A DNA stretch of 21,196 bases, taken from Desulfobacterales bacterium (GTDB lineage: Bacteria > Desulfobacterota > Desulfobacteria > Desulfobacterales > JAUCGF01). Positions 3,193-20,853 of the stretch are shown here, piece by piece. The position numbers and the translations under genes are program-made. How positions within the stretch are numbered: position 1 is the first letter of the stretch; each line of letters opens with the position of its first letter. The DNA is taken from contig JAOZRC010000014.1 in NCBI GenBank assembly GCA_029940345.1, positions 1 through 21,196 on the forward strand. Direction: 5' to 3'. The notes under the pieces are model-generated. The model did not search any database. It was not told the DNA's origin and was given only the letters and a program-made list of their open reading frames with translations.

Positions 3193-4131
3193 TCAGATTT
3201 CCATTGCGATAATTTCTTTGGCCAGTTCAAAATATTGTAAAGCCGCCGGGCTATGTTTGTCATAATAACTGACAGGCTCTTTCATAATCTGAGATTCCTT
3301 GATTTTAGCATCATAATCAATCACCGTTTCAAATGTCATTCCTCCGTAACTCCCCTTTAACTTGCTTACCACCAGCTTGGCAACAGTGCAATTGTGGTCA
3401 TACATTGTTACCAATACGCGTGATCGGATTCGAGGATTGGTGTTTCGCTTCACCCGCTTGATGAGCTTGATCGTCTGGCCAACTCCTTGAGTCGAAAGAT
3501 ATTCGCTTTGACAGGGTATAATAACAAAACTCGCGGCGGTTAGCGAATTCAGCACAAAATAACCCATGGACGGAGGTGTGTCGATAAAGATATAATCATA
3601 TTGATCAGTCAACCGGCTAAGACGGTCTTTCAGCATATATTCAAAAAAGTTAACACCAAAATAACGCCGGTTTAATAAGATCATATTTTCATCAGACGGA
3701 AGCAAAGCCAATCGGGCGTATTTGGTGTTTAATATATAGGATGAAAATTTTGAACCGGAATGGATCGCATCATAAAATGAGTGAGCGTTTTGATACCCTA
3801 AAGTGCTTGTTAAACTGGCTTGAACATCAAAGTCAATCATCAAAATCCGCTGGTTCATCATAGCGAGAGAGGCGCTCAGGTTGAGACACGTAGTGGTTTT
3901 GGAAACCCCTCCTTTTTGATTACTGACAGAAATGATGCGGCATGGCTGTTTTAGCGCAGGTGATGGTGCGCCCGTTATAAATTGGCTGATTTCTTTGTTT
4001 TTAGGAGCGATTGCCCGGTGAACAGTGAAAACCCGTTGACAGCGGGAGCATCTTACTTTGGATCCGGATTCACTGATAAGCGTCTCGTTGACGTTGAATT
4101 TACTGGCGCAATTTGTACATAAGATGATCAT
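3193..4131 (-). CDS. ParA/MinD-family ATPase with N-terminal MJ0042-type zinc ribbon
   Basis: A 312-residue protein. Residues 1-36 form a zinc ribbon with Cys pairs C5-x2-C8 and C28-x2-C31 (CTNC ... CSRC), as in the MJ0042 family. A linker of about 30 residues leads to a ParA ATPase with deviant Walker A KGGVSKTT (73-80, signature Lys73), the IDFDVQ motif with Asp102, and Walker B FIDTPPS (Asp184). Family members dimerise on ATP and ride the nucleoid or a polar hub. Those in chemotaxis operons (PpfA of Rhodobacter, ParC of Vibrio) position or segregate chemosensory arrays, which is the likely role here. It is the last gene of the cluster, 71 bases after a cheB-like gene, with AAAGGA before its ATG. 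The zinc ribbon may provide the docking contact; that is inference. Confidence 0.88.
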   Translation of the reverse strand: MIILCTNCASKFNVNETLISESGSKVRCSRCQRVFTVHRAIAPKNKEISQFITGAPSPALKQPCRIISVSNQKGGVSKTTTCLNLSASLAMMNQRILMIDFDVQASLTSTLGYQNAHSFYDAIHSGSKFSSYILNTKYARLALLPSDENMILLNRRYFGVNFFEYMLKDRLSRLTDQYDYIFIDTPPSMGYFVLNSLTAASFVIIPCQSEYLSTQGVGQTIKLIKRVKRNTNPRIRSRVLVTMYDHNCTVAKLVVSKLKGSYGGMTFETVIDYDAKIKESQIMKEPVSYYDKHSPAALQYFELAKEIIAMEI

Positions 4132-4202: not shown

Positions 4203-5273
4203 TTATTTAAGCCCTTCTTCCGCAGAATTTGTTAATTTTTCGATGGTGCCGGGAAGGTCATGTTCTTGCACCACCATATCCACAACCCCTTTTTCAACGG
4301 CATTTTCTGTCAGATTCGGATAAACGCAGCATTTACTGTCTTGTGCGACTGTTATACCGGACTCCGCCTTAATATTGACAAAACCGTCGGCGCCGTCACG
4401 ACCGGTTCCGGTCAATAACAAACCGATGGTGTTTTGCCGGAACATGCAGGCGGCTGATGAAAACAGCACATTCAACGGGTTGGCAACCGGGCCGGCAAGT
4501 TTTAAACAGATTTCGTCTTGCATATTCCTCCGGAATTCCAATGATTGTACATTCGAACAAATATAGCAGACACCTTGTTCAAGCACCTGTCCTTCTACAG
4601 CATTTTTTATCTTCCAAGGAACTTTTTCATCAAACCGTTCAACAAAGGCCGCAATTATTTTAGGTGATATCTCCTTCATTACAACAATCGCGGCTGGGAT
4701 AGCCGGCGAAAGCTTGGTCAGAAGACGAATAATTGTGTTAGGCCCCGTTAGGTTGGTGCCGATTGTAACGATATACTCAAGCTCCCGGAATTGATACCTG
4801 GCACTCAATTGATCGCGCACATTCCATTGAGGAAGGCGCACTCGATGGATATTGCTGATATTCACCGAAGTAGCCATTTTGGTGCGGTCTATAATTGAAT
4901 GCTTTGCCTGATCGATATTAACTGAAATTGCGCCGGAAGGCTTGGGGACAAAATCAACAACGCCAAGCCGCAGAGCCTCAAAAGTAATGACGCCGTCACT
5001 GAACAGGGAACTCAACACCACCACCGGAACCGGTGATTCGATCATAATGTGCCGGATACTCGTGAGTCCGTCCATGACTGGCATATCAATATCCAGTGTA
5101 ACAACGTCCGGATGCAATTGTTTTATTTTCTGAAGCCCCTCCATTCCGTCTCTGGCCGTTCCGACCACCTGAAGCACGGGATCGGTCTCCAAAATGTTAG
5201 CAATGGCCCGACGCATGAAAACCGCGTCATCCACCACCAGTACTTTAAATTTTTTTATTATATTTGTCGCCAT
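4203..5273 (-). CDS. CheB-like protein (REC + methylesterase fold) lacking catalytic Ser and His
   Basis: 356 residues when started at ATG 5273, four bases after the cheA stop. An in-frame upstream ATG (5336) would only add a tail, unlike a receiver, that overlaps cheA. The receiver domain spans 9-125 with acidic Asp15/Asp16, phospho-acceptor Asp61 (LDIDMPVMDG), Ser89 and Lys111, all intact. Residues 165-350 follow the CheB C-terminal fold, but IGASTGG reads IGTNLTG (Ser becomes Asn174). The QHMPP region reads VMKEISP with no His. Only the Asp of LTGTGRDGADG (Asp293) survives. The domain should therefore not hydrolyse receptor methyl esters. It lies between cheA and parA, with coupled translation. 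It may work as a phosphorylation-controlled binding protein rather than an enzyme. Confidence 0.88.
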   Translation of the reverse strand: MATNIIKKFKVLVVDDAVFMRRAIANILETDPVLQVVGTARDGMEGLQKIKQLHPDVVTLDIDMPVMDGLTSIRHIMIESPVPVVVLSSLFSDGVITFEALRLGVVDFVPKPSGAISVNIDQAKHSIIDRTKMATSVNISNIHRVRLPQWNVRDQLSARYQFRELEYIVTIGTNLTGPNTIIRLLTKLSPAIPAAIVVMKEISPKIIAAFVERFDEKVPWKIKNAVEGQVLEQGVCYICSNVQSLEFRRNMQDEICLKLAGPVANPLNVLFSSAACMFRQNTIGLLLTGTGRDGADGFVNIKAESGITVAQDSKCCVYPNLTENAVEKGVVDMVVQEHDLPGTIEKLTNSAEEGLK

Positions 5274-5277
5274 ATCA

Positions 5278-8200
5278 TCACATGGCCGCCACGCGAGCCT
5301 CGGATACAGACCGTCCCGCTTTGCTATAATTGCCAAAATCCCCGTAAACTGTTTTTTGGCTTCGCATCAGGGTCACCCGTTCGATGGTCAGATTAACAAG
5401 TTCATAGACATCCAAAATGAGAGAAACCCTTCCGTCACCTAAGATAGTGGCACCGGAAAAGCCGCTTTTTTCCTGTAAATAGTCCTCCAGCGGTTTTATC
5501 ACCACCTCTTCCTGGCCGATCAAGTCGTCCACAACCAGCCCGATTTTTTTCAAACCGGTGCTGACAATTACAACGAATTCCTTACCTTTTAGCTGTTCGT
5601 CCACCGGTATATCAAACAATTCGGATAATCTGACCAATGGCAGCGTTGCATTACGAATATAGATAACTTCATTACCTTCGATAGTGGAATTGTCTTCTTC
5701 AGCAATTCGTAAGGTTTCCTCAACAGTGGCAAGCGGGATCGTGTAAAGCTCTTTTCCCACTCTGACCAACAAGGCCGGTATAATCGCCAACGTTAGCGGT
5801 ATTTTGATGCGCAGTTGTGTAAAAGCACCTTGTTCAGAATCAATCTCCAACGTACCATTCAGTTTTTCTATATTCTTTTTGACAACATCCATGCCAACCC
5901 CGCGACCGGAAGTATGCGTGACTTGCGCGGCCGTTGAAAAACCGGGTTTTAAGATAAGTGATGTAACATCTTTTAATGACATGACGGCCAATTCCTCTTG
6001 AGTGATGAATGCTCCCGCAAGCGCCACTTCTTTGATTTTATCAGGGTTTAACCCTTGACCGTCGTCGCGGACTTCGATGACCACATGGTTGCTTTCATGG
6101 TAAGCTTCGAGGATTATCCGCCCGGTTTCGGGTTTGCCAAGCCGCCGGCGTTCATTGGTTGATTCAATGCCATGGTCCACTGCATTACGGATAATATGAA
6201 TCAGGGGATCTGATATCTTTTCAATGATCATTTTATCCAATTCGGTGGCTTCCCCCCTGATATCCAGCGTCACTCTTTTGGGCGTGTCATGAATTAAGTC
6301 ACGCACCAGCCGGGGATAACGATTAAAAAGTTGTGAAATGGGAAGCATCCGCACTCGCATCACCCCTTCTTGAAGTTCAGTGGCCACTCTTCCCAAGTTG
6401 ACCGTGGCCTCATTCAATCTGAACGTGATGGCGCGCACTTGCTTCATCTCCTTTTGTTCCAAACGGGAAGATTCTTTAAGATATTGCTGTAAATCCCGCA
6501 TCTCATTGTATAATTGGGAAAACCAAGCGCGGCTGACCACCAGTTCACCGACTTGGTTCATTAAGGCATCAATTTTGTTCGCGTCGACGCGTACACTCTT
6601 TTTCATTACAACGCCGTATTGCTTTTCTTTCAACTGCGCTTTTGTTACATCAGCGTCTGTGGTTCCGGCGATAGGTGCGGTTTCCCCTGTTTTACCAGTT
6701 AAGGAAAGCCCTTCAGCGGGTTCGGATGCCTGTGTGGTAACTGTTTCTTGCAATTCGTCAGTTACCAGGGATTTTTTCTCAGAAACGTCACTTTTAGCTT
6801 TCGCTTCGGTTTTAGGCGCTTTGGGTGCCGACGGCGTTCCTGATTCTTCAGGGGTTAAGTCAGGCTCCGCTTTGATTTTTTCTTCAGCTTCCTGGGTCTC
6901 AGCGACAAAGGGAGGAACCGGTGCTATTTCAATTTCCGGTATTTCGGAAACAGCGGGTGTTTCCGATGTTTCGGCCAGGCCAGGGAGTTCCGTTTCGGCT
7001 TTGGTTTCATCCGGTAATGGGCGTTTCGGAAACGCTTCGTCAGACGTCAGTTCTATGTATTTGCCTGTTTCATCAGTCCCGGATTCAATAATAGGGTGTC
7101 CTTCAGGCGTCAGATCGCTTTTTGAAAACAAATTGGCGTCGATCATATCCTGGGAATCACTGGTTCGGTGGATATGATCCTCCCGGTAAAAATCATAAGC
7201 GGATGCAAGTTTGTCAAAAAGCATTTTATCATTTTCAAGTGGCGGCATGGCAGCGTCTTCCACTTCAGCCGTTTTTGGGAGTTCATCGGTTTCAGCCCCT
7301 ATATGATCTGGCCCACCCGGCACCTCCGTCTCAGCCGCCGCAACCGGTTCGATTTCATCGATATCCGTTATTTCAACAACGCTTTCGGTTTCCTCCTCTT
7401 CGATTGTCCCTGTTACACTTTTGGTATCATCCGCTTTAACCGACTCAACCGCTTTTTCAGGTTCAGCGGTATCAGTGAATTCATTCGGTTCTTCCGGACC
7501 AATCGCCACAACCGGTTCGACCTCATCGCTTATTTCATCAATATCCGATATTTCGACAACACTTTCAGTTTCCCCGGCTTCGATCGTCTCTGCTATACGT
7601 TTCGTGTCAACCGCTTTTACCGTTTCGAGGCCCTCTTCTTTTGTTTTAATCGGGAGATACTTACTGTCATCAATTTCTTCTAATCGTTGGGCATCAATTC
7701 GAAACTTTTGCAGTTGTGGAAAAAGACTTACGATTTTATTAATATAAGGTTTCAGTTGGAATTTAATAAAATCCGACCAGGAAAGCTTTCCGGATTGGAC
7801 AGATTCAGCTTGCGTTTGCTCAATTGCAGTTATCCAATTTTCATAAAATATAGCGAGATTATCATATCCCATATAATTGGCTGATGAGCGCAACGTCTTG
7901 ATGATGTCAGTATATTGATTGAAAATTTCAACCACACCATCAGAATGAGGTGGATCATTGAGATACGCAAGTATTTTAGTAAAAGAATCATTGAGCTGAT
8001 TCGTAAAGATGGCAAATAACTCCGGATCGCCGAGATCATCGCCGCGTATCTCCTCAACTAAGATGGCGTCGGGTTCATCTTCGGGGTCGGATTGAATTCC
8101 CGTTGAAGGCGCAATTTCCATGACATCATCGACAGCCATTTCGATAGCTGTTTCAAAATCAGCATCCTCTAACTCTGACCCTGTTTCCGTTTGGGATGCA

Positions 8201-8613
8201 TTACCAGGTGAATGTGCGTCTTTTTCCGTTTCGGTTTCGATTGATAATCGGTCGATACGTTTGATTATACTCGCAGTATCAGTCTCTTCTGTCTGAGATT
8301 GTTCAAGTTCGCTTACCAGCATACTGATCAGATCGCGAGCCTCTATGAGAGTGTCAATGATTTCTTTATTAAGCGACGTTTCCCCTTTTCGGATCATATC
8401 CAGCAGATTTTCCAATTTATGGGAAAGCTCCGCTGTTTTTATCATGCCCATATACTCGGAGGCACCCTTTATGGTGTGAACCGACCTGAAAATATCGTTA
8501 AGAATTTCCAGGTTGCCGGGATCTGCTTCTAATCGGAGCAAATTGGTTTCCATCTCTTCAAGATGTTCCACACTTTCGGCAACAAAATCCGGAAGTAACG
8601 ATAAATCAATCAT
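5278..8613 (-). CDS. cheA: CheA-type chemotaxis histidine kinase with long acidic linker
   Basis: 1111 residues, well above the usual 650-750. The HPt domain covers 1-105 with phospho-His46 (SVHTIKGAS). A second helical unit around 193-300 resembles a degenerate HPt (TLRSSANYMGYDNL, Lys at the His position). Residues 320-665 are acidic, low-complexity and rich in E, T, S and P, with a roughly 27-residue unit repeated at 335-361 and 395-421. Then come the dimerisation helices (672-775, IDALMNQVGELVVSRA), the HATPase with N-box IIRNAVDHGIE (807-817), DDGQG (850-854) and SGRGVGMDVV (902-911), and a CheW-like regulatory domain (940-1080). There is no C-terminal receiver and no recognisable P2 domain. 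The start has AAGGAG upstream. It should phosphorylate the receivers encoded nearby. cheW precedes it by 64 bases. Confidence 0.95.
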   Translation of the reverse strand: MIDLSLLPDFVAESVEHLEEMETNLLRLEADPGNLEILNDIFRSVHTIKGASEYMGMIKTAELSHKLENLLDMIRKGETSLNKEIIDTLIEARDLISMLVSELEQSQTEETDTASIIKRIDRLSIETETEKDAHSPGNASQTETGSELEDADFETAIEMAVDDVMEIAPSTGIQSDPEDEPDAILVEEIRGDDLGDPELFAIFTNQLNDSFTKILAYLNDPPHSDGVVEIFNQYTDIIKTLRSSANYMGYDNLAIFYENWITAIEQTQAESVQSGKLSWSDFIKFQLKPYINKIVSLFPQLQKFRIDAQRLEEIDDSKYLPIKTKEEGLETVKAVDTKRIAETIEAGETESVVEISDIDEISDEVEPVVAIGPEEPNEFTDTAEPEKAVESVKADDTKSVTGTIEEEETESVVEITDIDEIEPVAAAETEVPGGPDHIGAETDELPKTAEVEDAAMPPLENDKMLFDKLASAYDFYREDHIHRTSDSQDMIDANLFSKSDLTPEGHPIIESGTDETGKYIELTSDEAFPKRPLPDETKAETELPGLAETSETPAVSEIPEIEIAPVPPFVAETQEAEEKIKAEPDLTPEESGTPSAPKAPKTEAKAKSDVSEKKSLVTDELQETVTTQASEPAEGLSLTGKTGETAPIAGTTDADVTKAQLKEKQYGVVMKKSVRVDANKIDALMNQVGELVVSRAWFSQLYNEMRDLQQYLKESSRLEQKEMKQVRAITFRLNEATVNLGRVATELQEGVMRVRMLPISQLFNRYPRLVRDLIHDTPKRVTLDIRGEATELDKMIIEKISDPLIHIIRNAVDHGIESTNERRRLGKPETGRIILEAYHESNHVVIEVRDDGQGLNPDKIKEVALAGAFITQEELAVMSLKDVTSLILKPGFSTAAQVTHTSGRGVGMDVVKKNIEKLNGTLEIDSEQGAFTQLRIKIPLTLAIIPALLVRVGKELYTIPLATVEETLRIAEEDNSTIEGNEVIYIRNATLPLVRLSELFDIPVDEQLKGKEFVVIVSTGLKKIGLVVDDLIGQEEVVIKPLEDYLQEKSGFSGATILGDGRVSLILDVYELVNLTIERVTLMRSQKTVYGDFGNYSKAGRSVSEARVAAM

Positions 8614-8677
8614 AGTAGTCTCTCCTTGTTAAAATTCGGAATGCGGAATTTTCACATTCCACATTCCCAATTCCCCT

Positions 8678-9181
8678 TTAACCGACATCTTTCAGTTTTT
8701 TAAACTCATCAATACGCAGAATGCGATTAAAATCCAAAAGAATCAGCAAATTTTTATCCAGTTTGCAAACACCTCGAATATACTGGCTTTCAAGACCTGC
8801 CACAACAATATCAGGCGGCGGTTCCACCGTTTTTTCGTCAATCTTAAGCACTTTGGTGACAAAATCCACAATAAAACCGGTAACACGGTCGTTGACGTTC
8901 AAAATTAAAATCCAGGATTTCTCATAATCCATCTCTTTTATGTATATATTGAGTCTTTTTCTCAAATCAATTACAGGCACAATGTTACCTCGTAGATTGA
9001 TGATGCCCTCAATAAAATCAGGTGAATTGGGTACGGTTGTAATAGGAGCGGATCTGATAATTTCCTGAACCATCAGGATGCTAACGCCAAACAGCTCTGT
9101 TCCGATGTTAAAGCCGACAAGCTGCATCAACTGATCTTCTTCCGAAAACTCTTCAGACTGATTAGTAAAGGATTCTTCCAT
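8678..9181 (-). CDS. cheW: CheW coupling protein
   Basis: 167 residues from ATG 9181. This ATG lies 8 bases after GGGAGG, whereas the GTG three codons upstream overlaps that site and is unlikely to be used. A short acidic N-terminal tail (MEESFTNQSEEFSEED) precedes one complete CheW domain: LVGFNIGTELFGVSI, VQEIIR, ITTVPNSPDFIEGIINLRGNIVPVIDLRKRL, then GFIVDFVTKVLKI and YIRGVCKLDKNLLILLDFNRIL. The NLRG.I.PVIDLR core is intact. It bridges MCP tips to the CheA regulatory domain in the array. It is 64 bases upstream of cheA in the same direction. The spacer carries short repeated GGAATGCGGAATT-like words. Confidence 0.95.
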   Translation of the reverse strand: MEESFTNQSEEFSEEDQLMQLVGFNIGTELFGVSILMVQEIIRSAPITTVPNSPDFIEGIINLRGNIVPVIDLRKRLNIYIKEMDYEKSWILILNVNDRVTGFIVDFVTKVLKIDEKTVEPPPDIVVAGLESQYIRGVCKLDKNLLILLDFNRILRIDEFKKLKDVG

Positions 9182-9276
9182 TTTATTCACCTCCCTTTGG
9201 TTTAGATTTATTGGTAATTAAAAAAGTTCATCATATCATTTAAGTTGATTTCCAGATAATAATATACCGAATTTAG

Positions 9277-9395
9277 GGTATCCTTCATGTGCCAGTTTAA
9301 TGCTTTTTTGCATTCAGATGTCAGGAATCAGGCAGGCGCACCCTGACAGCTAAACACTGACACCCGGTTTCCATCACAAAAAAGTGTAAGCTAGC
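9277..9395. repeat. Decayed type B element (copy 3) upstream of cheW
   Basis: GGTATCCTTCATGTGCCAGTTTA (9277-9299) aligns with the left end of copy 1. AAAAAAGTGTAAGCTAGC (9378-9395) aligns with its inner right arm. The middle has diverged. It fills most of the 250-base gap between the fusion regulator and cheW, and so probably overlaps any promoter for cheW-cheA. Confidence 0.5.
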
Positions 9396-9431
9396 ATGAC
9401 ATGAAACGGTATATTTTTTTTCGGAATTCAC

Positions 9432-11351
9432 CTAAGTTGTAAGAATCATGTTGGCAATTTCGGATACACTGGCTTCCAATACGATCAGCTTTTCGTCAAA
9501 GGCTTTTTCCAACGGCGTGGTGATCATACAAGTGTCTGATTTCTGAGATATAATCCACCCGTCAATTTGTTTAATGCTACGTAATCCTTCAAGAGTGCCT
9601 ACCTCGGCGCCGGAAAGCAGCACGACGATAATCACGCCTGGAAATGAATTTGCAACTGAAAGCAGAAAACGATCAAAATTGTTTACCGGCTGATTTTGAA
9701 TCTTACCAGCCGAATTGGGTGGGCGTTCTTCCCGCATTTCTATATGTAACCCATATTTGTCGTCATGAATATCAAAATCAAGAGCGAACTGATTGGCGCC
9801 AAGGTAACAACTCCCCATTTTCAGTATCACCGGAGATGCCTCATCTATTCCTTCTCTCTTACTTTCCATATTGGGTGGTAATAGCGGTAAAACAGTCGCC
9901 AGACTGCGTTCATTAAGGTATTCACAAAAAGGATTCACAAATTCAGGTGGCATGGTATGCAGAGCGACAACCGCTCCGCGCATTTTGCTATTCAACAAAG
10001 GAATCAAGCGTATCAATTCCGCATATCCGCCTATTCCGGAGTTAACAATTACCAGGGCCGGCGATGCATACGGCATTCCATTCCAATCTGCCGGTTGTTT
10101 ATCGGATCCGTTTTCATTGGCAATAATCGGCGGTGCTTTTACAAGTTGAAAATTCTCCACCTGGGCACTGGCCGCGAAACAGATGCGTTGCACCAACAAT
10201 TCCTCTTGTGCGGCCATATCAGCGTTCATCGACGGTTTGCCGATAAAATCAACCGCGCCAAGACGTAAAAAATCAAGAATATTTTGCCGTCCCTTATGAC
10301 CGATACTGCTGATGATTACGACGGGGCAGGGATTTTTAAGCATGATATGTTTAAGCGCTGTACTGCCGCCCATTACCGGCATATTCACATCCAAGGTTAT
10401 AATATCAGGTTTCAAAGCTTCGCTTTTTTCAAGCGCTTCTTCTCCATTTTGGGCGGTCCCGATAATTTCAATTTGGCCGCTTGCAGAAAGTAAGCGTGTT
10501 AACACTTTGCACATCATCGCCGAATCATCCACAATGAGAACGCGACATTTTCCGGATTCGGGTTTCAGATCAGGTCGGATTGCTGACTCCGGTTTTTGCT
10601 CAGATGGCGCTAATGCCTCTTGCGGCGTTTTTGTTCTTTCTACAATGACATCCTTTTTCAGCGCTTTTTCGTCTTTCAGACGAGCCGCTTCCATGAGAAG
10701 GAATTGCCACCCTTTTTTTACAGATACTGTCATTTCCGCAGGTTGTCTCAGAGTTTGAAAATTACCTCTCTCCCAGGAAAGAATTTCATAGAACGCAACT
10801 TCACCCTCACTATCTTCACACACCGCGTGAATAATTTCACCATCACTGATAACAATGATGCCTTTATGTGAATTTTGTTGAACCTGTATCACCATACTCA
10901 TCGTGGCAAGGCAACACATCTGGATGATATCCGTTAATTGCATATTTTTAAGCGTACCGGCAAAGCCCTGCTGCTGTTTATTCAGATTTTCGTGCAACAG
11001 TCGTTGGAGTTCGCTGATAGCAAAAGGCTTTTCAATAAATCGTAAGCAATCCAGGGGTTGTATTTTATCTCGCATTTCAGCGGTTCCGTAACTCGACATA
11101 AGGATCACACCGACTTCCGGAAAGTGCCGTTTTATTTTATCAAGTAACTCAATTCCGTTAATTCCGGGCATAACAACGTCAGAAAGAACCAGCGCAATAT
11201 CCTCCCTGTCCATGATTGCCAGCGCTTCAGAACCGCTACATGCTGTAACGATCTCATAAATGGCGCTATCGAATGCCAGAAACTCGCACAACATATCAAC
11301 CACTTCAATCTCATCATCGACGATCAGCACTTTGGGCAGTTTTTTTTCCAT
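9432..11351 (-). CDS. REC-PATAN(DUF4388)-REC-CheB-like fusion regulator, catalytic triad lost
   Basis: 639 residues from the ATG at 11351, which overlaps the stop of the upstream gene (TGATG). Receiver 1 (7-125) has Asp12/Asp13, phospho-Asp58 (LSDVVMPG), Ser86 and Lys108. A PATAN/DUF4388-like domain follows (about 128-225, FAGTLKNMQLTDIIQMCCLA ... KGIIVISDGEIIHAVCEDSEGEVAFYEILSWERGNF). After a linker of about 45 residues, receiver 2 (268-385) has Asp275/Asp276, phospho-Asp321 (LDVNMPVMGG) and Lys372. Residues 430-639 keep the shape of a CheB domain. At the Ser of IGASTGG there is Gly439 (VNSGIGG). HTMPPEF has its His one residue early. The Asp of GNDGAAG is Gly585. It is therefore a two-input regulator with no expected methylesterase activity. 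Its neighbours suggest it serves the HAMP/permease pair upstream. Confidence 0.88.
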   Translation of the reverse strand: MEKKLPKVLIVDDEIEVVDMLCEFLAFDSAIYEIVTACSGSEALAIMDREDIALVLSDVVMPGINGIELLDKIKRHFPEVGVILMSSYGTAEMRDKIQPLDCLRFIEKPFAISELQRLLHENLNKQQQGFAGTLKNMQLTDIIQMCCLATMSMVIQVQQNSHKGIIVISDGEIIHAVCEDSEGEVAFYEILSWERGNFQTLRQPAEMTVSVKKGWQFLLMEAARLKDEKALKKDVIVERTKTPQEALAPSEQKPESAIRPDLKPESGKCRVLIVDDSAMMCKVLTRLLSASGQIEIIGTAQNGEEALEKSEALKPDIITLDVNMPVMGGSTALKHIMLKNPCPVVIISSIGHKGRQNILDFLRLGAVDFIGKPSMNADMAAQEELLVQRICFAASAQVENFQLVKAPPIIANENGSDKQPADWNGMPYASPALVIVNSGIGGYAELIRLIPLLNSKMRGAVVALHTMPPEFVNPFCEYLNERSLATVLPLLPPNMESKREGIDEASPVILKMGSCYLGANQFALDFDIHDDKYGLHIEMREERPPNSAGKIQNQPVNNFDRFLLSVANSFPGVIIVVLLSGAEVGTLEGLRSIKQIDGWIISQKSDTCMITTPLEKAFDEKLIVLEASVSEIANMILTT

Positions 11352-12118
11352 CAAAAAAAATATCCGATGCTCTTATAAATCATCTGCAAACCGGCCAGGA
11401 TTACAAATATGGAAAAAACGAGTTTTAAAATTCTTTCCGCAATCATACGGGAAACCATCGGCCCGAGGCGGCCGCCGATAATCACGCCTGCTGTGGTAAA
11501 AACCGCAACATCCCAGCGAATCTGTCCTTCCCATATATTGAGTGCCGTTGCCAACCAACCGACACAGCCTTCCACTACAACGGTAGTGGCAATCGCACGA
11601 TGAATTTCAATTTTTAAAAGACGATCCAGAACGGGTAAAACAGATTCAGCGGTGCCGACGGATGTCATCCCGCTGGCGATTCCTCCAAAAAAGGGAACCC
11701 AGGCCCAGGGGAAAATTTCCTCGACCAATATATGCGCACGAGTGTTCTCAGTTGTCTTTTTAATTGACATTAACACCCATAGCGCACAAGAAATAACAGC
11801 CAAACCGAAAAACATTTTGGGAATTGCCGGATTCACGCTGGAAGCCAGATGAAGTCCGATAACCAACCCCGGGAAACTGATGATGATCATCGGCAGCGCC
11901 AGGTCAAATTCCACCTGTTTCTGTTCAGTATAAGCAATCATGGCCGAAGTCATTCCGCACAGCTCTGTGATCATACCGGTTCCTACTGCTTCCGGGACAC
12001 TGAGATTCAGTCCGTGAATAAAAATGGGAAAAAACAGGATGCCGCCCCCGAATCCGCTTCCGGTGGCAAGGCAGGCAACAACGATGGCAATCGGGAACAT
12101 GAACCAGTATTCAATCAT
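11351..12118 (-). CDS. TauE/SafE-family (DUF81) membrane permease
   Basis: A 255-residue, strongly hydrophobic protein with about eight membrane helices. It has the two-repeat plan of the TauE/SafE family: a first glycine-rich start, VACLATGSGFGGGILFFPIF (14-33), and the matching second-half segment, FFGGIASGMTSVGTAESVLPVL (143-164). Characterised relatives export sulfite, sulfoacetate or related organosulfur anions; the substrate here cannot be read from sequence. Its ATG overlaps the stop of the HAMP gene, and its own stop overlaps the ATG of the fusion regulator (both TGATG), so the three are almost certainly co-translated. A permease inside a chemosensory operon is unusual and suggests that transport flux or the transported anion is being sensed. 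Confidence 0.88.
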   Translation of the reverse strand: MIEYWFMFPIAIVVACLATGSGFGGGILFFPIFIHGLNLSVPEAVGTGMITELCGMTSAMIAYTEQKQVEFDLALPMIIISFPGLVIGLHLASSVNPAIPKMFFGLAVISCALWVLMSIKKTTENTRAHILVEEIFPWAWVPFFGGIASGMTSVGTAESVLPVLDRLLKIEIHRAIATTVVVEGCVGWLATALNIWEGQIRWDVAVFTTAGVIIGGRLGPMVSRMIAERILKLVFSIFVILAGLQMIYKSIGYFF

Positions 12119-12885
12119 CAGGCGTTCTCTTCATCCGCATTTTCAGCCGCCAATAAACGGCCATCACTCAGTTCCACATTGTAGAAGTCAAAAGTTTTGA
12201 CCATCTCCTGCAAGGTTTCCATATCCTGACGCACACATTCAATATCCTCTTCCAATTGACGCGATTTGCAGCTATCGGCCTGAGAACAGATAATCGCATA
12301 CATATTATCTAACAGAGCGATATTCTGACCAGTGGAATTCCACAAATGGAGCAATATTTCCTGGAGATTGATAGACAGCTCATTAAGGAGTTCGCCGATT
12401 TTGCCAATTTCATCATCATAACGAATCGGAACCGTTTCATTTAAATGACCGCTGGCGATTTTGCGGGCACACTTGGCCATCGTGTCCAGTGGCTCCACAA
12501 TATTACGGATAAATACAATCATCGCGGCAATCATCAAAATAAGAACAAGGGCCATTACCAGAATCATACGAACTTGCAACCGATTAAGGATATACGCCAC
12601 CTTATCTGTTTCAAAACGGTCGGCCTGCTCATCAGTGAGTTGGCTGGTGATACTATTGGAAATTTGATTCAACGTTCGATTGCTTCCGATTTCAAAAATC
12701 AGCTCAAGTGAGACCGTCAGAGATGCAAAAATAACCAAAAAGAAATAAATCAGCAGTCGTTTGCGGAAGTTGGAAAATCTCAGCCTTAGCTTGGGCCCCT
12801 TGAGCATCATGCGCATACGCTTGATGCGCTCTTCGTTTCTTCGCTCTTCCCCGTTCCATACTGATTTATCCTTGAAAATTTTCAT
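12118..12885 (-). CDS. Membrane HAMP-domain protein without catalytic output domain
   Basis: 255 residues. A basic cytoplasmic N-terminus (EERRNEERIKRMRMM) is followed by membrane helix 1 (44-66), a short periplasmic loop of about 40 residues (67-106), membrane helix 2 (107-127), a HAMP domain (about 128-180; Pro132, DDEIGKIGELLNEL at 157-170) and a C-terminal helical, probably coiled-coil tail (to about 235). There is no kinase, cyclase or MCP domain, so it resembles the membrane half of a sensor. The signal must pass to a partner; the fusion regulator two genes downstream is the obvious candidate. No clear Shine-Dalgarno precedes ATG 12885. A long hairpin repeat lies 44 bases upstream of the start. 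Confidence 0.85.
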   Translation of the reverse strand: MKIFKDKSVWNGEERRNEERIKRMRMMLKGPKLRLRFSNFRKRLLIYFFLVIFASLTVSLELIFEIGSNRTLNQISNSITSQLTDEQADRFETDKVAYILNRLQVRMILVMALVLILMIAAMIVFIRNIVEPLDTMAKCARKIASGHLNETVPIRYDDEIGKIGELLNELSINLQEILLHLWNSTGQNIALLDNMYAIICSQADSCKSRQLEEDIECVRQDMETLQEMVKTFDFYNVELSDGRLLAAENADEENA

Positions 12886-12928
12886 TGTTCAAATAGGAAA
12901 TGTTGGGTGTTTCACAAACAGTGTGCCC

Positions 12929-13008
12929 ATGTAGGGTGGGTGGAGTGCAACGGAACCCACCAGATTTCCATAAACGGTGGGTTCCGTTACACTCCACCCA
13001 CCCTACAT
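12929..13008. repeat. Near-perfect 33-bp stem hairpin repeat (type D)
   Basis: The left arm (12929-12961) begins ATGTAGGGTGGGTGGAGTGC and the right arm (12976-13008) ends GCACTCC-like ACTCCACCCACCCTACAT, with one mismatch and a 14-base loop. The GTAGGGTGGG-type arm is a motif I have often seen dispersed in bacterial genomes. It sits between the 47-residue gene and the HAMP gene and would form a very stable RNA stem in the HAMP gene leader. There is no U-tract on the transcribed side, so a classical terminator is not supported. Confidence 0.8.
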
Positions 13009-13049
13009 CAAGATGTGTAAACCGACAAATGAAGAGTGCCTGCAATTGC

Positions 13050-13193
13050 TTATTCCGGCGAGACACCCAACTCTCTGAGTTTCGCAGCCAGACGTTCCGC
13101 TCTTTGTTTTTCCATATCCGCCAGTTTCAGCATATTCAGAACGGCATGTTCAGGATACGGATTATTTTGGGTTGATGCTTGTGCTGCTTCCAT
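13050..13193 (-). CDS. Small 47-residue protein resembling a Uma2-type C-terminal tail
   Basis: It begins MEAAQASTQNNPYPEHAVLN and ends AERLAAKLRELGVSPE. AAGGA lies 7 bases before the ATG, which supports real translation. The charged helix EKQRAERLAAKLRELGVSPE closely resembles the C-terminal coil that ends many Uma2-family (DUF820) nuclease-fold proteins, but no nuclease domain is present. It may be a leftover tail that gained its own start, or an independent small helical peptide. It lies 42 bases after the CheY-like gene, in the same direction. Confidence 0.5.
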   Translation of the reverse strand: MEAAQASTQNNPYPEHAVLNMLKLADMEKQRAERLAAKLRELGVSPE

Positions 13194-13235
13194 CGTTTTT
13201 CCTTAAATTTGACACCCCGATTTCAGTTGACGGTT

Positions 13236-13586
13236 CTAACTTTCAAGAAGCTCAAGAATTTGTCTTGATTTATGCTTATTCACATATCCGACGGCCCCTA
13301 AGTTGGCCGCATCTTCACTGTACTTTTCCTTATTTAAATTGGAAAGAAAAATAATTCGGGCGGCGTCATCATAATTCAAAATCGTTTTGGCCGCCATAAA
13401 GCCGTCAACCCCTCGCATGGTAACATCCATTGTTACAAAATCAGGTTTTAAGGTCTTATATAATTCAACGGCTTCCTGCCCATTGGTAGCCTCGCCCACA
13501 ATTTCATGGCCACTCGGCTCAAGCGTTTTGCGGATCATTTTACGCATCAAAGAAGAATCATCAACAATTAAAATACGTTTGCCCAT
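13236..13586 (-). CDS. CheY-like single-domain response regulator
   Basis: A 116-residue stand-alone receiver. The acidic pair is Asp9/Asp10 (ILIVDDSSLMRKM), the phospho-acceptor is Asp54 in TMDVTMRGVDG, the switch residue is Ser82 (IIFLSN), and the conserved Lys is Lys104 (GYVNKHK). Two usual features are changed. The Pro after the phosphorylation loop (D-x-x-M-P) is Arg58, and the Lys is followed by His rather than Pro. All chemically essential residues remain, so CheA phosphorylation is expected. There is no output domain; the target (motor, pilus or other) is not shown. AAAAGGTG lies upstream of the ATG. A type B repeat copy separates it from the broken cheB-like gene. Confidence 0.92.
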   Translation of the reverse strand: MGKRILIVDDSSLMRKMIRKTLEPSGHEIVGEATNGQEAVELYKTLKPDFVTMDVTMRGVDGFMAAKTILNYDDAARIIFLSNLNKEKYSEDAANLGAVGYVNKHKSRQILELLES

Positions 13587-13604
13587 TCAATTCACCTTTT
13601 TATT

Positions 13605-13752
13605 GACACCCTCATTTGTCAGTTTACATTTTGTCTCAGGGACACAATATCTATAGAAAACAAGATTAACGATACAACAAATTCCGTAGGAACGAAATAG
13701 AAAAAGTGTAAAGTGATTCAGGCCCCGGGGGCAGATACAGTTCAAGGATGCC
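13605..13752. mobile_element. MITE-like fold-back element (type B, copy 2)
   Basis: GTCAGTTTACATTTTGTCTC (13618-13637) and the following ACAATATCTATAGAAAA match copy 1 at 2023 onward. CGTAGGAACGAAATAGAAAA and AGTGTAAAGT match its right half. TTCAAGGATGCC (13741-13752) matches its right end. Copy 2 is more diverged and has lost clear flanking duplication. It fills the gap between the CheY-like gene and the broken cheB-like gene. Confidence 0.65.
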
Positions 13753-13816
13753 GGTATTCCTTAAAATTTATTAAGCAAAAATAGTGCCGAACAGTTCGTA
13801 GCGCGATAATTTTATA

Positions 13817-15036
13817 TTAGCGCTTCATTTTGACAGGTATCCCAGGCTTAAAAGTGTTTATCTTCGCAGCTATCTCCCTATCGGACATAATAGAACCAGG
13901 CGCGCAAACCTCAAGCGCCGCTTTGGGCATCTCACGGCATACGCAATTGGGAGGATTTTGAACGAAGCAGTCACCTCCCTTCCGGACAATTTCCCCTAAC
14001 CCTTACGCGCCATCATCGCCCAGGCCGGAAAGAATGACTCCCACAGTACGCTCCCCCATAAGTTCGGCTACGGAAAACATCAGCATATTAATCGCCCCTC
14101 TGCGAGACGGAAACGGGGGCGGCGTTACTTTGAAACGGTGCTCTGGATTTTTATTATGGACCGTTACATATTCATCTTCAGAGATCAGATAGCAGACGCT
14201 TCCCCTGACAGGCTCGCTGTCTTTAGGGCGTTTGACCCGAATGGCGCTGCAATTATTCAGATAGCGGACAAAATCATCCGCCACCTCAGAGTTGGTATAC
14301 AACATCACCATAAAAACAACCGGCAGTTGGGCTTCCAGACGGGGAATTATGTTTAAAAGAGCTCTGTAACCACCTTCAGCAGCTCCGATGACGACAATAT
14401 GAGCATAAGAATTAAGGTCCCAGTCTCCCGGTTTAGCGACCGGCTCAGGCTTGGGACGGATATAACGGACAGCGTCAATCTCAACACGGGCAGCGTAAAC
14501 TATTTTACGTATAATATTCTGCTGCTGCTCCTGAACCGTGAGCTTTAGCAAGCGATTGGGCTTGTATATAAAATCAATGGCGCCTAGTTTGAGGGCGTCA
14601 AACGTCGCCCTGGCGCCTTCCCAGGTAAGTGAACTCAACATCACTGTCGGCTTGGGGCATAACATCATAATGTGTTTTAATGCCGTAAGCCCATCCATCA
14701 CCGGCATCTCAATATCCAATGTGACCACATCGGGATTCAGCCGCGGAATCAATTCCAACGCTTCTTTGCCGTTAGACGCCTCTCCCACAACCTTTATATC
14801 AGCTAGCGGTTCGAAAATAATGGAAATCGCTCGACGAATCAGTCTCGAATCGTCTACAACTAACAGACGTGTCAGTTCTTTTTTATTGGTAATGCGAATT
14901 AAGGGTTGAATCTGACTGTGTAAATTCAGGGTGTTACAAGCCTGTTTCGGTCAATGCTCTGGCGTAACCCGCCGTAACCCATTGTTTTTATTGCATCCGA
15001 AAATTTCAACCCTTAATTGGCATTGGTAGTATTCAT
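13817..15036 (-). pseudogene. Third CheB-like gene, broken by a MITE-like insertion at its start and an in-frame TAA
   Basis: The open part encodes a full receiver (LLVVDDSRLIRRAI, phospho-Asp in TLDIEMPVMDG, Lys in IYKP) and a CheB-type domain. There is no ATG, GTG or TTG before the receiver; a 130-bp inverted-repeat element (14892-15021) occupies that place. Removing it with one copy of ATTGGTA gives ATG AAT ACT ACC AAT AAA in frame with the receiver. At 14003-14005 a TAA interrupts the Asp motif as GDDGA-stop-GLGEIVRKGG. The same frame then runs 61 more codons (DCFVQNPPNCVCREMPKAAL ...) to TAA 13817-13819, a normal CheB C-terminus. IGASTGG reads IGAAEGG, and the His position is Tyr, so catalysis was lost as well. 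GTG 14786-14788 would start inside the receiver. Confidence 0.85.
14892..15021. mobile_element. 130-bp MITE-like element (type E) inserted in a cheB-like gene
   Basis: The inverted ends AATGCGAATTAAGGGTTGAA (14891-14910) and TTCAACCCTTAATTGGCATT (15005-15024) match at 19 of 20 positions. The direct repeat ATTGGTA occurs at 14885-14891 and 15022-15028, overlapping the inverted ends by one to three bases. The interior has no gene. It separates the cheB-like reading frame from its probable ATG, and reading through from that ATG meets TAA within eight codons. Confidence 0.8.
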
Positions 15037-15289: not shown

Positions 15290-15688
15290 GTGAGCAAAGT
15301 GCAACAACCTCAAGACAAACGTAAATTTCCCCGTATATCCCGCAATATTGACATCGAAGTCAGCCTGCTGACTTTTCCGCTTTCTGATGCCGTGATTAAA
15401 AATGGCGCCAGTATCAATATCGGCGGCAATGGAATCCGCATCACTTCCTCCGATCCCTATGACCCCAAAACCATGCTTAATTTGAAGATAAATATTATCG
15501 GCTGGGAGGGCTTCAAAAAACCATTCTCCAAATTTATTGACATCTCTTCAGATGCCTGTCTAAGAGCGGTCGGTGAAGTGGTGTGGTGTAATAAAAGTGC
15601 TAAAGACAATGGTTATGAATTGGGCATCAAATTCCTGAATATCTATGAAGATGACTCTAAAGCATTGATACGCTATTTGAAAGCCTGA
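15290..15688 (+). CDS. PilZ-domain protein with altered c-di-GMP motif
   Basis: 132 residues, starting at GTG 15290 with AAAGGTAAG upstream. It is a single PilZ domain: an N-terminal RKFPR (Arg11 and Arg15, the RxxxR half of the c-di-GMP site), then SINIGGNGIRI (41-51), which corresponds to (D/N)xSxxG with Asn43 and Gly48 kept but Ser replaced by Gly45. The usual close is GEVVWCNKS ... NGYELGIKFLNI. PilZ proteins bind cyclic di-GMP and change motility, secretion or polysaccharide output. The Ser-to-Gly change may weaken binding without abolishing it. It is a solo gene, divergent from the chemosensory cluster. A link to that cluster is plausible from position only. Confidence 0.85.
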   Translation: MSKVQQPQDKRKFPRISRNIDIEVSLLTFPLSDAVIKNGASINIGGNGIRITSSDPYDPKTMLNLKINIIGWEGFKKPFSKFIDISSDACLRAVGEVVWCNKSAKDNGYELGIKFLNIYEDDSKALIRYLKA

Positions 15689-16251: not shown

Positions 16252-17562
16252 ATGATGTACATGAACACAAAGTTTAAGCTGGCAAGGGTGCTGATAGCGA
16301 CAACCTTTTTAATCTTAACCGGCCTGATGTTAACCGGAAGGTGCTCCCTGGTTTCGGCGGCCACCGTCAAGATTGGATTGAATTATCCGGCCAGTGGCCC
16401 TTACTGGATCATGGGGCTGGCCCAAAACAGCGCTGCCACTATGGCGGTTGAAGAGATTAACGCAAGCGGCGGTATTTTAGGTAATACGGTTGAGATTGTG
16501 AGACGTGATTCCAAATCCCAAACTGGTGTAACTACTAAAAACGTAAACGAGCTGATCAGTGGCGAAAATGTCAAAATGGTCTTTGGTGGCTCTTCCAGTG
16601 CTGTGGCTGTCACGGCGGGCAAAATATGCCAGCAAAGAGGTGTGCCCTTTTTTGGCACGCTCACCTATTCCACAACTACCACCGGAACTCAGGCGCGACG
16701 GCTTGTTTTCAGAGAGTGCTACAACGCCTGGATGGGAGCAAAAGTTTTAGCTGGCTATCTGAAAACCAATTTTACGGGCAAGAATTATTTTTTTATTACC
16801 GCCGACTATTCATGGGGACACACCACCGAAAAATCAATTCGCACCTTTACTGACACATTAAATAAAAATGATCATAAAGGTATCCTCACCCCTTTTCCGG
16901 GTGCCCGTATCACCGATTTTCTGATGGCACTCAAACAAGCGCAGAGTGCCCGGCCGGATGTTCTTGTTTTGGTGCTTTTTGGCAAAGATATGGAAACAGC
17001 TCTGAAACAGGCAACCAAATGGAAGATGAAAGAAACGATGCAAATCGTGGTTCCCAATCTGACTTTGGGTATGGCCGAAGGTGCCGGCCCCGAAGTCATG
17101 GATGGCGTCGTCGGGGCGGTGCCGTGGTGCTGGCAGGTTCCCTATAAATATAATTACGCGAAAGGCAAAACATTTGTGGAAAAATTCACCCGCAAATTTA
17201 AACGCTACCCCTCCTCTTCGGCCGCATCGGCCTACACCATCGTTTACGAATATAAAGCCGCGGTGGAAAGAGCGGGAACCTTTGACACCCCGGCTGTGAT
17301 TCGGGCACTTGAGGGACATGTTTACAACCTTTTAAAGGACACTCAAATATGGCGTGCTTTTGATCATCAGTCCGTGCAGACCGTTTATGCGGTCAAAGGC
17401 AAACCGGCCGCTCAAGTCAGGAATGATCCGTACGAACTGGACTATTTTGATATCATTAATACCATTTCAGGCCCGGAGGCTGTGCGCACCCGCGAAGAGT
17501 GGGACGCGATCCGCATTGCCGCCGGCAAGCCTATTATTCTCGAACGGCTGCCCGGAGAGTAA
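16252..17562 (+). CDS. Periplasmic type I substrate-binding protein (Leu/Ile/Val-type, Peripla_BP_6)
   Basis: 436 residues; ATGs at 16252 and 16255 both suit the GGGAGG site at 16241-16246. The N-terminus has a signal peptide: basic KFKLARV, a hydrophobic core, then VSAAT, with cleavage expected after Ala36 or Ala37. LTGRC is not a proper lipobox. The mature protein follows the branched-chain amino acid/amide-binding pattern: IGLNYPASGPY, AATMAVEEINASGGILG, VEIVRRDSKSQ, VFGGSSSAVAVTAGKICQQRGVPFFGT, and FITADYSWGHTTEKS. No permease or ATPase genes follow; the next gene is an MCP 105 bases downstream. It may therefore deliver ligand to the receptor rather than to a transporter. Expression is probably sigma-54 dependent. 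The ligand is unknown. Confidence 0.9.
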   Translation: MMYMNTKFKLARVLIATTFLILTGLMLTGRCSLVSAATVKIGLNYPASGPYWIMGLAQNSAATMAVEEINASGGILGNTVEIVRRDSKSQTGVTTKNVNELISGENVKMVFGGSSSAVAVTAGKICQQRGVPFFGTLTYSTTTTGTQARRLVFRECYNAWMGAKVLAGYLKTNFTGKNYFFITADYSWGHTTEKSIRTFTDTLNKNDHKGILTPFPGARITDFLMALKQAQSARPDVLVLVLFGKDMETALKQATKWKMKETMQIVVPNLTLGMAEGAGPEVMDGVVGAVPWCWQVPYKYNYAKGKTFVEKFTRKFKRYPSSSAASAYTIVYEYKAAVERAGTFDTPAVIRALEGHVYNLLKDTQIWRAFDHQSVQTVYAVKGKPAAQVRNDPYELDYFDIINTISGPEAVRTREEWDAIRIAAGKPIILERLPGE

Positions 17563-17667
17563 TTCGTTTAAAGCGGGGCGAACCGTATGCATTCGAAAAT
17601 CGCTTAAAAAATAATATTTAACAATAACAAATTTTAGTAAAAATTAGATAAAATGAGGAGAAGAATT

Positions 17668-20600
17668 ATGAAATTTTCGTTTAAAAATTTGAAGATCGGC
17701 TACAAACTGATCATTTTTTTCCTGATGGTCGGACTTATCCCCGCTGGCGTCGTAGGATGGCGGGCATTGACAACTTCCACCCAATCGCTTGAAACTCAGT
17801 TTTTCGACCAACTCAAAGGGCTTCGGGAAATCAAGAAACATTCAGTGCAAGTGTATTTTGATGAGCGCAAAGGCGATATGACTTTTTTGGCGGAAACGGC
17901 CGCCAGTCTGCGGGATGAGACTTTTGACAAACTCAAAGGTATCAGGCAGACTAAAGTCGGACAACTTGAAACGTATTTTGGAAAATTGTTCGGCGATATC
18001 GCCATTCTGGCGTCGAACCCCACAGTTGCAGCGGCGACAATTGATATGGAAACCGCCTTTATGTCTGAAGGCCAAAAAGTCGGCGGTCCTGCCTGGAATG
18101 CGCTTAAAGAGCAATACAGCCCCTGGCTTAAACATTATAAAGAGTCCTATGCTTATTATGACCTTTTGCTGATTGCCGAAGATGGCAATATCGTATATTC
18201 GGTGGCTGAAAAATCTGACCTGGGAAAGAATCTTTTAAAAGGCGGACTAAAAACAAGTTCACTGGGAAAATGCTTTGAAAAAGCTTTGAAAGCAACGGCG
18301 ATGGCCGATTTTCAGCCGTATGCGCCTGACGATAAGAAGCAGGCGGCTTTTATCGGTGCTCCTGTAAAGGCAGGAGGTAAAATAGTGGGTGTGGTCGCCT
18401 TGCAGATTTCTAATGAACAGATCAATGCAATCGTTCAGCAGCGTGGAGGCTTGGGCGAGACCTTCGAGGCTTACCTTGTCGGCGGTGTTAAAGGCAAAGC
18501 CTCTTTACGTAGCGACAGGGTGCTTAAGAAAGGGAAAATTGGCGATCCCAAGAGCGGCGTTGACATTGATAATGCGTTATCCGGCCTAACAGGAGAAATA
18601 TCTAAATTCGGTTCCACCGGTGTATTTGAGGCTAGCTTTTTCGCACCACTTAAGCTTGCAGGGGTGAACTGGGGTATCAATATTACAGGCGAATTTGAAG
18701 AGGCTGTCCTTCCTAAAGTGGAAGAAGAGACGGAAGACTTTTATACCAAATACAAAAACGCTTTTGGTTATTATGACGTCTTTTTGATTGATCCAAACGG
18801 ATACTGCTTCTATTCGGTTGAGCACGAGGACGATTATAAGACCAACCTGGCAAACGGCAAATATGCCAGCTCTAACTTAGGAGCGTTAGTGCGTAAGGTT
18901 CTGGATACCGGTAAGTTTGGATTTGCCGACTTTAAGCCATACGCGCCCAGTAAAGATGCTCCTGCCGCATTTATTGCATTGCCCATTGTCCGTTCTGGTA
19001 AAACAGAGCTTGTCGTGGCCCTTCAAATTCCTTCCGAAGGTATTGCTGCCATCATGGGGGAGCGCACCGGCTTGGGTAAAACCGGTGAAACTTACTTGGT
19101 GGGCCCGGATAATATCATGCGCTCCGACTCTTTCCGTGATGCAACCAATTACTCAGTTGCCGCGTCTTTCAGCAATCCGAAAACCGGCAGCGTCAACACC
19201 GAAGCAAGCCGTGAAGCGTTGGCCGGCAATACCGATGCAAAAGAAAGCCTCAATTATAATGACAATTCAGTATTGTCAGCGTTTACGCCTGTAAAAGCGT
19301 TTGACGTCACTTGGGCGCTTCTGGCCGAGATAGATCAGGCGGAGGCGTTTGCAGCGATTACAGGTTTGCAGCGCGTGATGCTTATTATCGGTGTGGTGGC
19401 ATTGCTTGCCATCGTGGGTGCGGCCTTTCTGATTGCCCGAACCATATCCAAACCGGTGCAGCGCGTGGCGGAAACAGTAACCCAAATTGCGGAAGAACGC
19501 GATCTCACACTGACCGTGCCAGTGGATAGTAAAGATGAAATCGGTGAGATGTCCGATCGGTTTAACGCCATGATGGAGGTGTTGCGGAACGCCTTCAAGG
19601 TGGTTGACGAATCGGCTGTCAATGTGGAATCCAGCGCGGGTGAGGTTGCCAAACGTGCATCGGCTAACCGCGACCGTGCTGAGAGGGAGGTTGTCCAAAC
19701 TCAAAAATCAGCCGATATTTTGGCTGAAATGGGTGGCACCGCCGGTGAAGTGGCAAAAGCGGCTGAAGGACAAAAGATTGCGGCGGAAGAATCATCCACA
19801 GCCATCAGTAATCTTTTGGAATCCATGGAAAAGGTGTCCTCATCCGCTGGTGAACAGAGTGTATTGGCCAATACGGCCACGGAACGCGTGGGTGCTATGG
19901 GTGAAACCGGTGGCAAGGTTGCATCCACCGCCCAGGCCCAAGGCGAGATGGTTGTGAAAGTGTCTGCCGCCGTGGAAGAAATCACCAAGGGTGTTGAAGA
20001 GATGGAGAAAGCGGTTCAGCAGGCCACTGAGTACGGTCAATCGTCGTTGCAGGCCGCCGCAGAAGGCACCGGTCTGGTAACCCAAACCGTTGAAGGTATG
20101 CGCGCCATTGCCGAATCTTCCGATCAAATTTCCGAGATCATCTCCGTTATTACCGAAATCGCCGACCAGACCAACTTGCTGGCATTGAACGCAGCCATTG
20201 AAGCGGCCCGCGCCGGCGTACATGGTAAGGGTTTTGCGGTGGTTGCTGACGAGGTTGGTAAACTCGCCCAGCGCTCCTCCGAAGCGGCCAAGGAGATCAC
20301 CCAGCTTATTAAGGACTCCACAAACCGTGTTAACGAAGGAACCAAACTCACCGACCAGTCCCAACAGGCGTTGACCAAAATCGATGAAGGGGGTCGGGTC
20401 AATATGACAGCGATTGAAGAAATCGCCAAAGCCGCTGGACTTCTGGCCACCAACACCGAGCAGGTGCGAACCTTGATGGAAGACCTGAACCAGTTGGCCC
20501 AGGAGATCGGCCAGATGGCGCGTGAACAGGGTCCTCGCCGTCAGGATGCCGAGAAAGCGCTTGGCCAGTTGGTGGAACATTCCGGCCTTATCGCTGAATT

Positions 20601-20853
20601 GGTTACCGGCGCGAATGATGGCGCCACTATGGTAAATACGCAGATGCAGGCCATTATGCAGCGCACTGGCGAAATGGACCAGATGACTACGCTTCAGGCC
20701 ACGCGTTCTAAAAACGCCGTGCAGATTGCCACGGAATCTTCCGAAGGCGCCAAACGCACCGTGGAAGGAGCCGGCGTGGTTGTGGGTATTACCGATGAGC
20801 TGCAAAACCTGTCCAAAAACCTTACCGAACAGGTAGAGCAGTTCAAGATTTAG
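17668..20853 (+). CDS. Methyl-accepting chemotaxis protein with tandem Cache-like sensor region
   Basis: 1061 residues from ATG 17668; GAGGAG lies 7 bases upstream, and an earlier ATG at 17653 overlaps that site. Membrane helix 1 covers 12-32. The periplasmic part (33-565) is very large, with two related halves: [17 protein letters not shown] (163-179) with [23 protein letters not shown], and [17 protein letters not shown] (368-384) with [23 protein letters not shown]. Each is followed by GET(F/Y).YLVG. Helix 2 is at 569-590, then HAMP (591-645, DEIGEM), and a long signalling coiled coil with the hairpin tip [20 protein letters not shown] (830-849) and [18 protein letters not shown]. The protein ends EQFKI with no CheR/CheB-tethering pentapeptide. 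The 3' half is visibly richer in G+C than the 5' half. Confidence 0.95.

Follow-up and report, generated by a model that had tools for sequence, protein, structure and literature searches.

CheB is the textbook eraser of chemoreceptor methylation and removes methyl esters from receptors with a Ser-His-Asp catalytic triad. The Frz system of Myxococcus, which works together with MglA/MglB polarity control, uses a working methylation pair. Cyanobacterial PATAN/DUF4388 receiver proteins bind PilB, and the chemosensory systems of alternative function (ACF/64H) have a core of CheA, CheW and very long methyl-accepting chemotaxis proteins (MCPs). Here we compare with these a chemosensory cluster from a Desulfobacterales bacterium, found on a stretch of 21,196 nucleotides (contig JAOZRC010000014.1 of assembly GCA_029940345.1, positions 1 to 21,196 of the forward strand) that we call the window. 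The minus strand of the window encodes ParA, a CheB relative of class A, CheA, CheW, a second relative of class B, a TauE permease, a HAMP protein, CheY and a broken third relative of class C. Judging from sequence, we consider it fairly likely that the CheB paralogues of this chemosensory operon are non-catalytic binding proteins switched by phosphorylation.

The three proteins share a receiver followed by a CheB-like domain. Class A (4203–5273, minus strand; CheB-like part 4245–4769) has only these two parts, while class B (9432–11351, minus strand) is built as receiver, DUF4388/PATAN, receiver and CheB-like domain; both assignments rest on Pfam, alignment and structure models. Class C (about 13817–14914, minus strand) is a pseudogene recognized from alignment, its reading frame and intact relatives. 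A first-pass annotation of this DNA had described three CheB-like proteins without the catalytic Ser and His; its coordinates for A and B are confirmed, and the broken class C gene lies within about 13817–15036.

Triad positions were taken from an alignment with the canonical CheBs of the same genome and from profile alignments that place each class on the solved CheB 1a2o, which bear out the replacements of Ser and His. The Ser, His and Asp positions of the window proteins hold Asn, Glu and Asp in class A, Gly, Thr and Gly in class B, and Ala, Tyr and Asp in class C, with the catalytic Asp retained in A and C. For the wider family, proteins identical over their last 200 residues were merged (248 proteins to 210 rows) and the truncated rows L078 and L085 were excluded from residue counts; one protein, L147:1-1314, was labeled class A by BLAST and class C by position and tree, and is counted as C. 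A complete triad is absent from all 75 class A and all 65 class B rows and present in 4 of 52 rows of class C, compared with all 16 canonical CheB rows, a small reference set made up of own-genome proteins and the best non-cluster matches. The first-pass proposal of a family of pseudo-methylesterases is supported for A and B, while class C is mixed, and the idea that every class C protein is dead is ruled out by the four complete triads.

Each class departs from CheB in its own way. Among 64 core rows of class A, the Ser position is Thr in 30, Ser in 26 and Asn in 8, the His position is Glu in 60, Asp in 3 and Ser in 1, and the Asp is present in all 64; a Gly-Thr-x-Leu-x-Gly-Pro-Asn motif is nearly fixed, as are the Glu and the Asp. 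Class B has Gly at the Ser position in 55 of 55 core rows (Ala in the Syntrophobacteraceae type) and a variable His position, most members having lost the Asp and most carrying a Ser one residue ahead of the Ser position. For class C, 42 core rows give Ala 26, Ser 12 and others 4 at the Ser position, Tyr 27, His 14 and Trp 1 at the His position, and Asp throughout (42/42). In the four triad-keeping members, Glu or Gln replaces the conserved Thr beside the Ser. We saw no displaced triad, because the CheB-like alignments of A, B and C contain no His that is fixed or almost fixed; the shifted His of the window's class B protein occupies the neighboring position, where most class B members have Gln and His is unconserved. 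A displaced triad is thus rejected.

The fold and the receivers have fared better. Pfam CheB_methylest matches all three proteins, at 127 bits for A, 51 for B and 80 for the piece of C ahead of its stop (cut-off 24), while the NCBIfam CheB model NF001965 (cut-off 293 bits) is not reached by A (256.7), B (231.4) or the intact class C protein of the same genome (260.8). Structure models of A and B match solved CheB (1a2o, 6ymz) over their full length, which supports retention of the CheB fold in these two, as the first-pass annotation had suggested. Its description of intact receivers also agrees with what we find: Pfam detects receiver domains in A, B and C, and the acidic pair, phospho-Asp, Ser/Thr and Lys are conserved in nearly all aligned rows. 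The proteins therefore resemble CheB in architecture, fold and phosphoacceptor and differ from it in the replaced Ser and His, in their subthreshold NCBIfam scores and in having no CheR near the window cluster.

No CheR match was found on the window's contig, in line with the earlier observation for the window. The genome (6.05 Mb, 1024 contigs, 93% complete) has three CheR genes, each on a contig with a canonical cheB, and ten CheB-domain matches: four canonical (207–221 bits), which like the CheR genes lie outside the cluster, and six divergent (35–133 bits), of which the window holds three and contigs C257 and C1001 the other three. Whole-genome Pfam searches found no CheR in 4 of 26 (E 1e-3) and 7 of 53 (E 1e-12) cluster-genome handles. 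Merging duplicates (G132 with G217 by contig coordinates, G019 with G219) leaves nine distinct CheR-less genomes (G034, G132, G130, G200, G201, G202, G215, G218 and G228); G107 was excluded because its CheB-like domain was not seen, the genome showing only a receiver-DUF4388 class B fragment and no CheB match at 1e-47. Canonical CheB, defined in the 53-handle search as E 1e-47 or better, was also not found in eight of the nine, all drafts and two of them Contendobacter bins; the ninth, G202, has one canonical match of 179 bits. Within 20 kb of the cluster, a search limited by contig breaks, CheR was found in only 1 of 26 genomes (G205, locus L165).

The window MCP (17653–20853, plus strand) consists of dCache, HAMP and a long signaling domain and ends in VEQFKI; it has no tethering pentapeptide, as had been noted before. 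Each of the 31 cluster MCPs ends with a QFK-like motif or has one close to its end, and none has a pentapeptide. The distance from receptor tip to C-terminus is 217–235 residues (n = 31; exactly 217 in 13), or about 31 heptads or more. This recalls the ACF and 64H systems, as does the CheA-CheW-MCP core, but the likeness to their receptors is one of length only, and the present cluster has two or three pseudo-CheBs, ParA and an ABC transporter. A methylation-site consensus has no match in the window MCP nor in 22 of the 31 cluster MCPs; control receptors beside the genome's canonical cheB have 5 and 2 such sites.

A conserved clade of pseudo-CheBs beside this CheA, which the first-pass annotation had named as support for its proposal, was found well beyond the window. 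The class B query matched 31 of 194 genomes of the order, own included (E 1e-45), which a later check resolved into 30 with class B and one with class C (G183). The class A query, run on a sample of 394 genomes from across the phylum, matched 15, own included (E 1e-72), eight of them at 39–43% identity. A scan of named genomes, taking the best 80 matches, yielded 79 loci. Class A is present at 67 of these, many of which are truncated where a contig ends. Hosts are Desulfobacterales, cable bacteria (Electronema, Electrothrix), a Syntrophobacteraceae type (L147–L156) and Contendobacter, Competibacter, Chromatiaceae and Methylococcaceae bins; one gamma-type locus, L112, is titled cyanobacterium and is probably a mislabeled bin. 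Most commonly the genes run C-MCP-CheW-CheY-HAMP-CheA-B-A-ParA, with an NMT1/SsuA-like ABC transporter after them, and among the 67 loci A occurs with CheA in 58, with C in 45 and with both B and C in 29, at least two ABC genes being present in 44. L165, from a Planctomycetota bin, was excluded from the 67 because canonical CheB and CheR are present there. Its cluster, which also holds A-like and C-like proteins, is perhaps an intermediate form.

Values of pN/pS between 0.18 and 0.34 in intact comparisons of A, the B CheB-like domain and C support purifying selection on the pseudo-CheB family. In a tree of 88 of the 210 rows (random and named picks, after removal of rows less than 75% filled), a branch separates A, B and C as a group from the 16 sampled canonical CheBs. 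The replacements are class-specific: mostly Glu at the His position in A, Gly at the Ser position in B, and mostly Ala at Ser with Tyr at His in C. Because of this common placement and these class-own replacements, an early split with later duplication is no less likely than the parallel loss first proposed, which is too simple an account.

Since catalytic residues are almost always lost and the cluster occurs in draft genomes without detected methylation enzymes, the pseudo-CheBs probably act by binding rather than cutting. The conserved family and the intact receivers are consistent with the earlier idea of phosphorylation-controlled binding, the binding itself being what we infer from sequence. 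In such a scheme, CheA would phosphorylate the receivers of A, B and C as well as CheY. Phosphorylation would open the interface between receiver and CheB-like domain, as in CheB, and the exposed face of the latter could bind a partner; for class A this might be the receptor helices, held through the old substrate pocket. Partner binding would then yield feedback or an onward signal without receptor methylation, and class B, where present, may relay the signal to a motor through DUF4388.

Type IV pili or gliding are a more probable output than flagella, since FlhA is unmatched in most sampled cluster genomes and a PilB-type ATPase is present in all. FlhA matches occur in 10 of 32 cluster-genome handles (9 of 31 distinct), the own and the sister genome having none, while a PilB-family ATPase was matched in 32 of 32, above the curated cut-off in 14 (739 bits in the own genome). 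Class B alone combines a receiver with DUF4388, which we take to be the PATAN domain of cyanobacterial pilus regulators; it differs from the cyanobacterial proteins in its second receiver and its dead CheB domain. MglA-like GTPase and MglB-like roadblock genes, reminiscent of Frz, flank the cluster at only 7 of the 67 loci (L105, L110, L120, L132, L138, L142 and L150). Several of these flanked loci also hold cNMP/PilZ or cNMP/DUF4388 proteins. More tentatively, the cluster may define a class of methylation-free arrays with two or three inactive CheB paralogues, phosphorylation-gated binding, ABC-transporter sensing and a pilus or gliding output.

Several observations weigh against this picture. 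CheR is encoded elsewhere in 22 of 26 and 46 of 53 cluster-genome handles and could still methylate the window MCP, and the CheR-less genomes are drafts (completeness 93% for G034, 82% for G132, 76% for G130, unknown for the six others). A BLAST of neighboring genes found no CheR or canonical cheB of at least 100 bits at any of the 67 class A loci; its power is low, however, since among the 12 canonical-type loci in that scan it recovered CheR at just 3, and the absence of CheR is therefore carried by the whole-genome Pfam searches. Nine of the 31 cluster MCPs do match the methylation consensus, at one site each (two overlapping in one), and only two control receptors were compared. On the output side, the PilB model also gives subthreshold matches in 7 of 14 control genomes, so that only 14 of the 32 PilB matches are firm; PilB binding belongs to the cyanobacterial PATAN proteins and would extend to class B only by analogy. 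Class B, the sole class with DUF4388, is moreover missing (<150 bits) from 7 of 7 gamma-type loci, which rules out a PATAN output as a universal feature. The pseudo-CheBs might instead modulate canonical methylation run from elsewhere, for instance as competitors for phosphate from CheA or for docking sites on receptors. The four canonical CheBs and three CheRs of this genome and the presence of CheR in most cluster genomes would suit such a role, which we nonetheless judge unlikely given eight distinct cluster genomes, all drafts, without detected CheR or canonical CheB and the many cluster MCPs lacking a consensus site.

Rather less likely still is that the CheB-like domains are active by other chemistry, through Ser/Thr-Glu-Asp in class A or the neighboring Ser in class B. 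The class A core does hold Ser or Thr in 56 of 64 rows along with its Glu and Asp, and the earlier Ser of class B is widespread; yet the class A position varies among Ser, Thr and Asn, the window's own protein having Asn, and class B mostly lacks the Asp and has no fixed residue at the His position. That class C remains a methylesterase in some lineages, or that the three classes assemble into a joint complex in which one chain complements the site of another, seems very improbable: the four members with whole triads would be the candidates, but they carry Glu or Gln for the conserved Thr, most class C proteins have Ala and Tyr, and no CheB is known to share a catalytic site across chains. Simple decay of duplicated CheBs finds an example in the pseudogene of the window, but is rejected for the family on grounds of selection and conservation: each class keeps its own motifs in Desulfobacterota and gamma-type bins alike, with low pN/pS in intact comparisons and a recurring operon. 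Non-catalytic binding proteins thus remain the reading we favor.

The class C gene of the window is indeed broken, as first described, and disrupted twice: by an in-frame stop (14003–14005) and in its start, no usable one being found upstream of its receiver. At its 5' end is a 134-bp element (14891–15024, no strand assigned) with 20-nt inverted-repeat arms at 14891–14910 and 15005–15024, which may be a small mobile element. The sister genome has an intact relative (L061), as does contig C1001 of the window's own genome (L015). That contig carries a second set of genes, C-CheW-CheY-HAMP and the N-terminal part of CheA, while C257 carries the C-terminal part of CheA followed by B-A-ParA; we infer that C257 and C1001 are neighbors. 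This second cluster (L014 start, L015 end) breaks off inside CheA at contig ends in the window's genome as well as in its sister, perhaps due to repeats there.

CheA (5278–8613, minus strand), with HPt, dimerization, ATPase and CheW domains by Pfam, forms with CheW (8678–9190, minus; Pfam) and the MCP a recognizable chemosensory core, and a CheY-like single receiver (13236–13586, minus) is also identified by Pfam. A TauE/SafE family permease (11351–12118, minus) and the HAMP-domain protein (12118–12885, minus), both assigned by Pfam and neighbor comparison, recur in the cluster, as does, near it, a PilZ-domain protein (15290–15688, plus). The ParA-type ATPase (3193–4131, minus) has an N-terminal MJ0042-type zinc ribbon, and a LivK-type periplasmic binding protein (16252–17562, plus) adjoins the MCP. 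A dual-specificity/tyrosine-phosphatase-like protein lies near the cluster at 1166–1741. Between the HAMP and CheY genes is a second short inverted repeat (12931–13006) with GTAGGGTGGGTGGAGTG arms, whose sequence, among the loci compared, occurs only in loci overlapping the window. A sulfonate-type ABC transporter belonging to the window system was considered and rejected, the binding protein of that transporter not being found in the window's genus (two genomes, own and sister) at E 1e-15. In three gamma-type genomes (L172, L174–L176; G228, G200, G201), the binding-protein gene downstream of the cluster has in-frame stops and therefore may be decaying or mis-assembled.

The first-pass annotation was correct on the residues, largely right about the pseudo-methylesterases and underestimated their scale, since they form conserved classes in a distinctive operon. 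If our reading is true, the CheB fold would have taken on a second role, as a binding module gated by a signal, and these clusters would be a natural system for asking how chemosensory arrays adapt without methylation. The finding also matters for sulfate reducers that glide or form filaments and for cable bacteria, whose motility control is poorly known.
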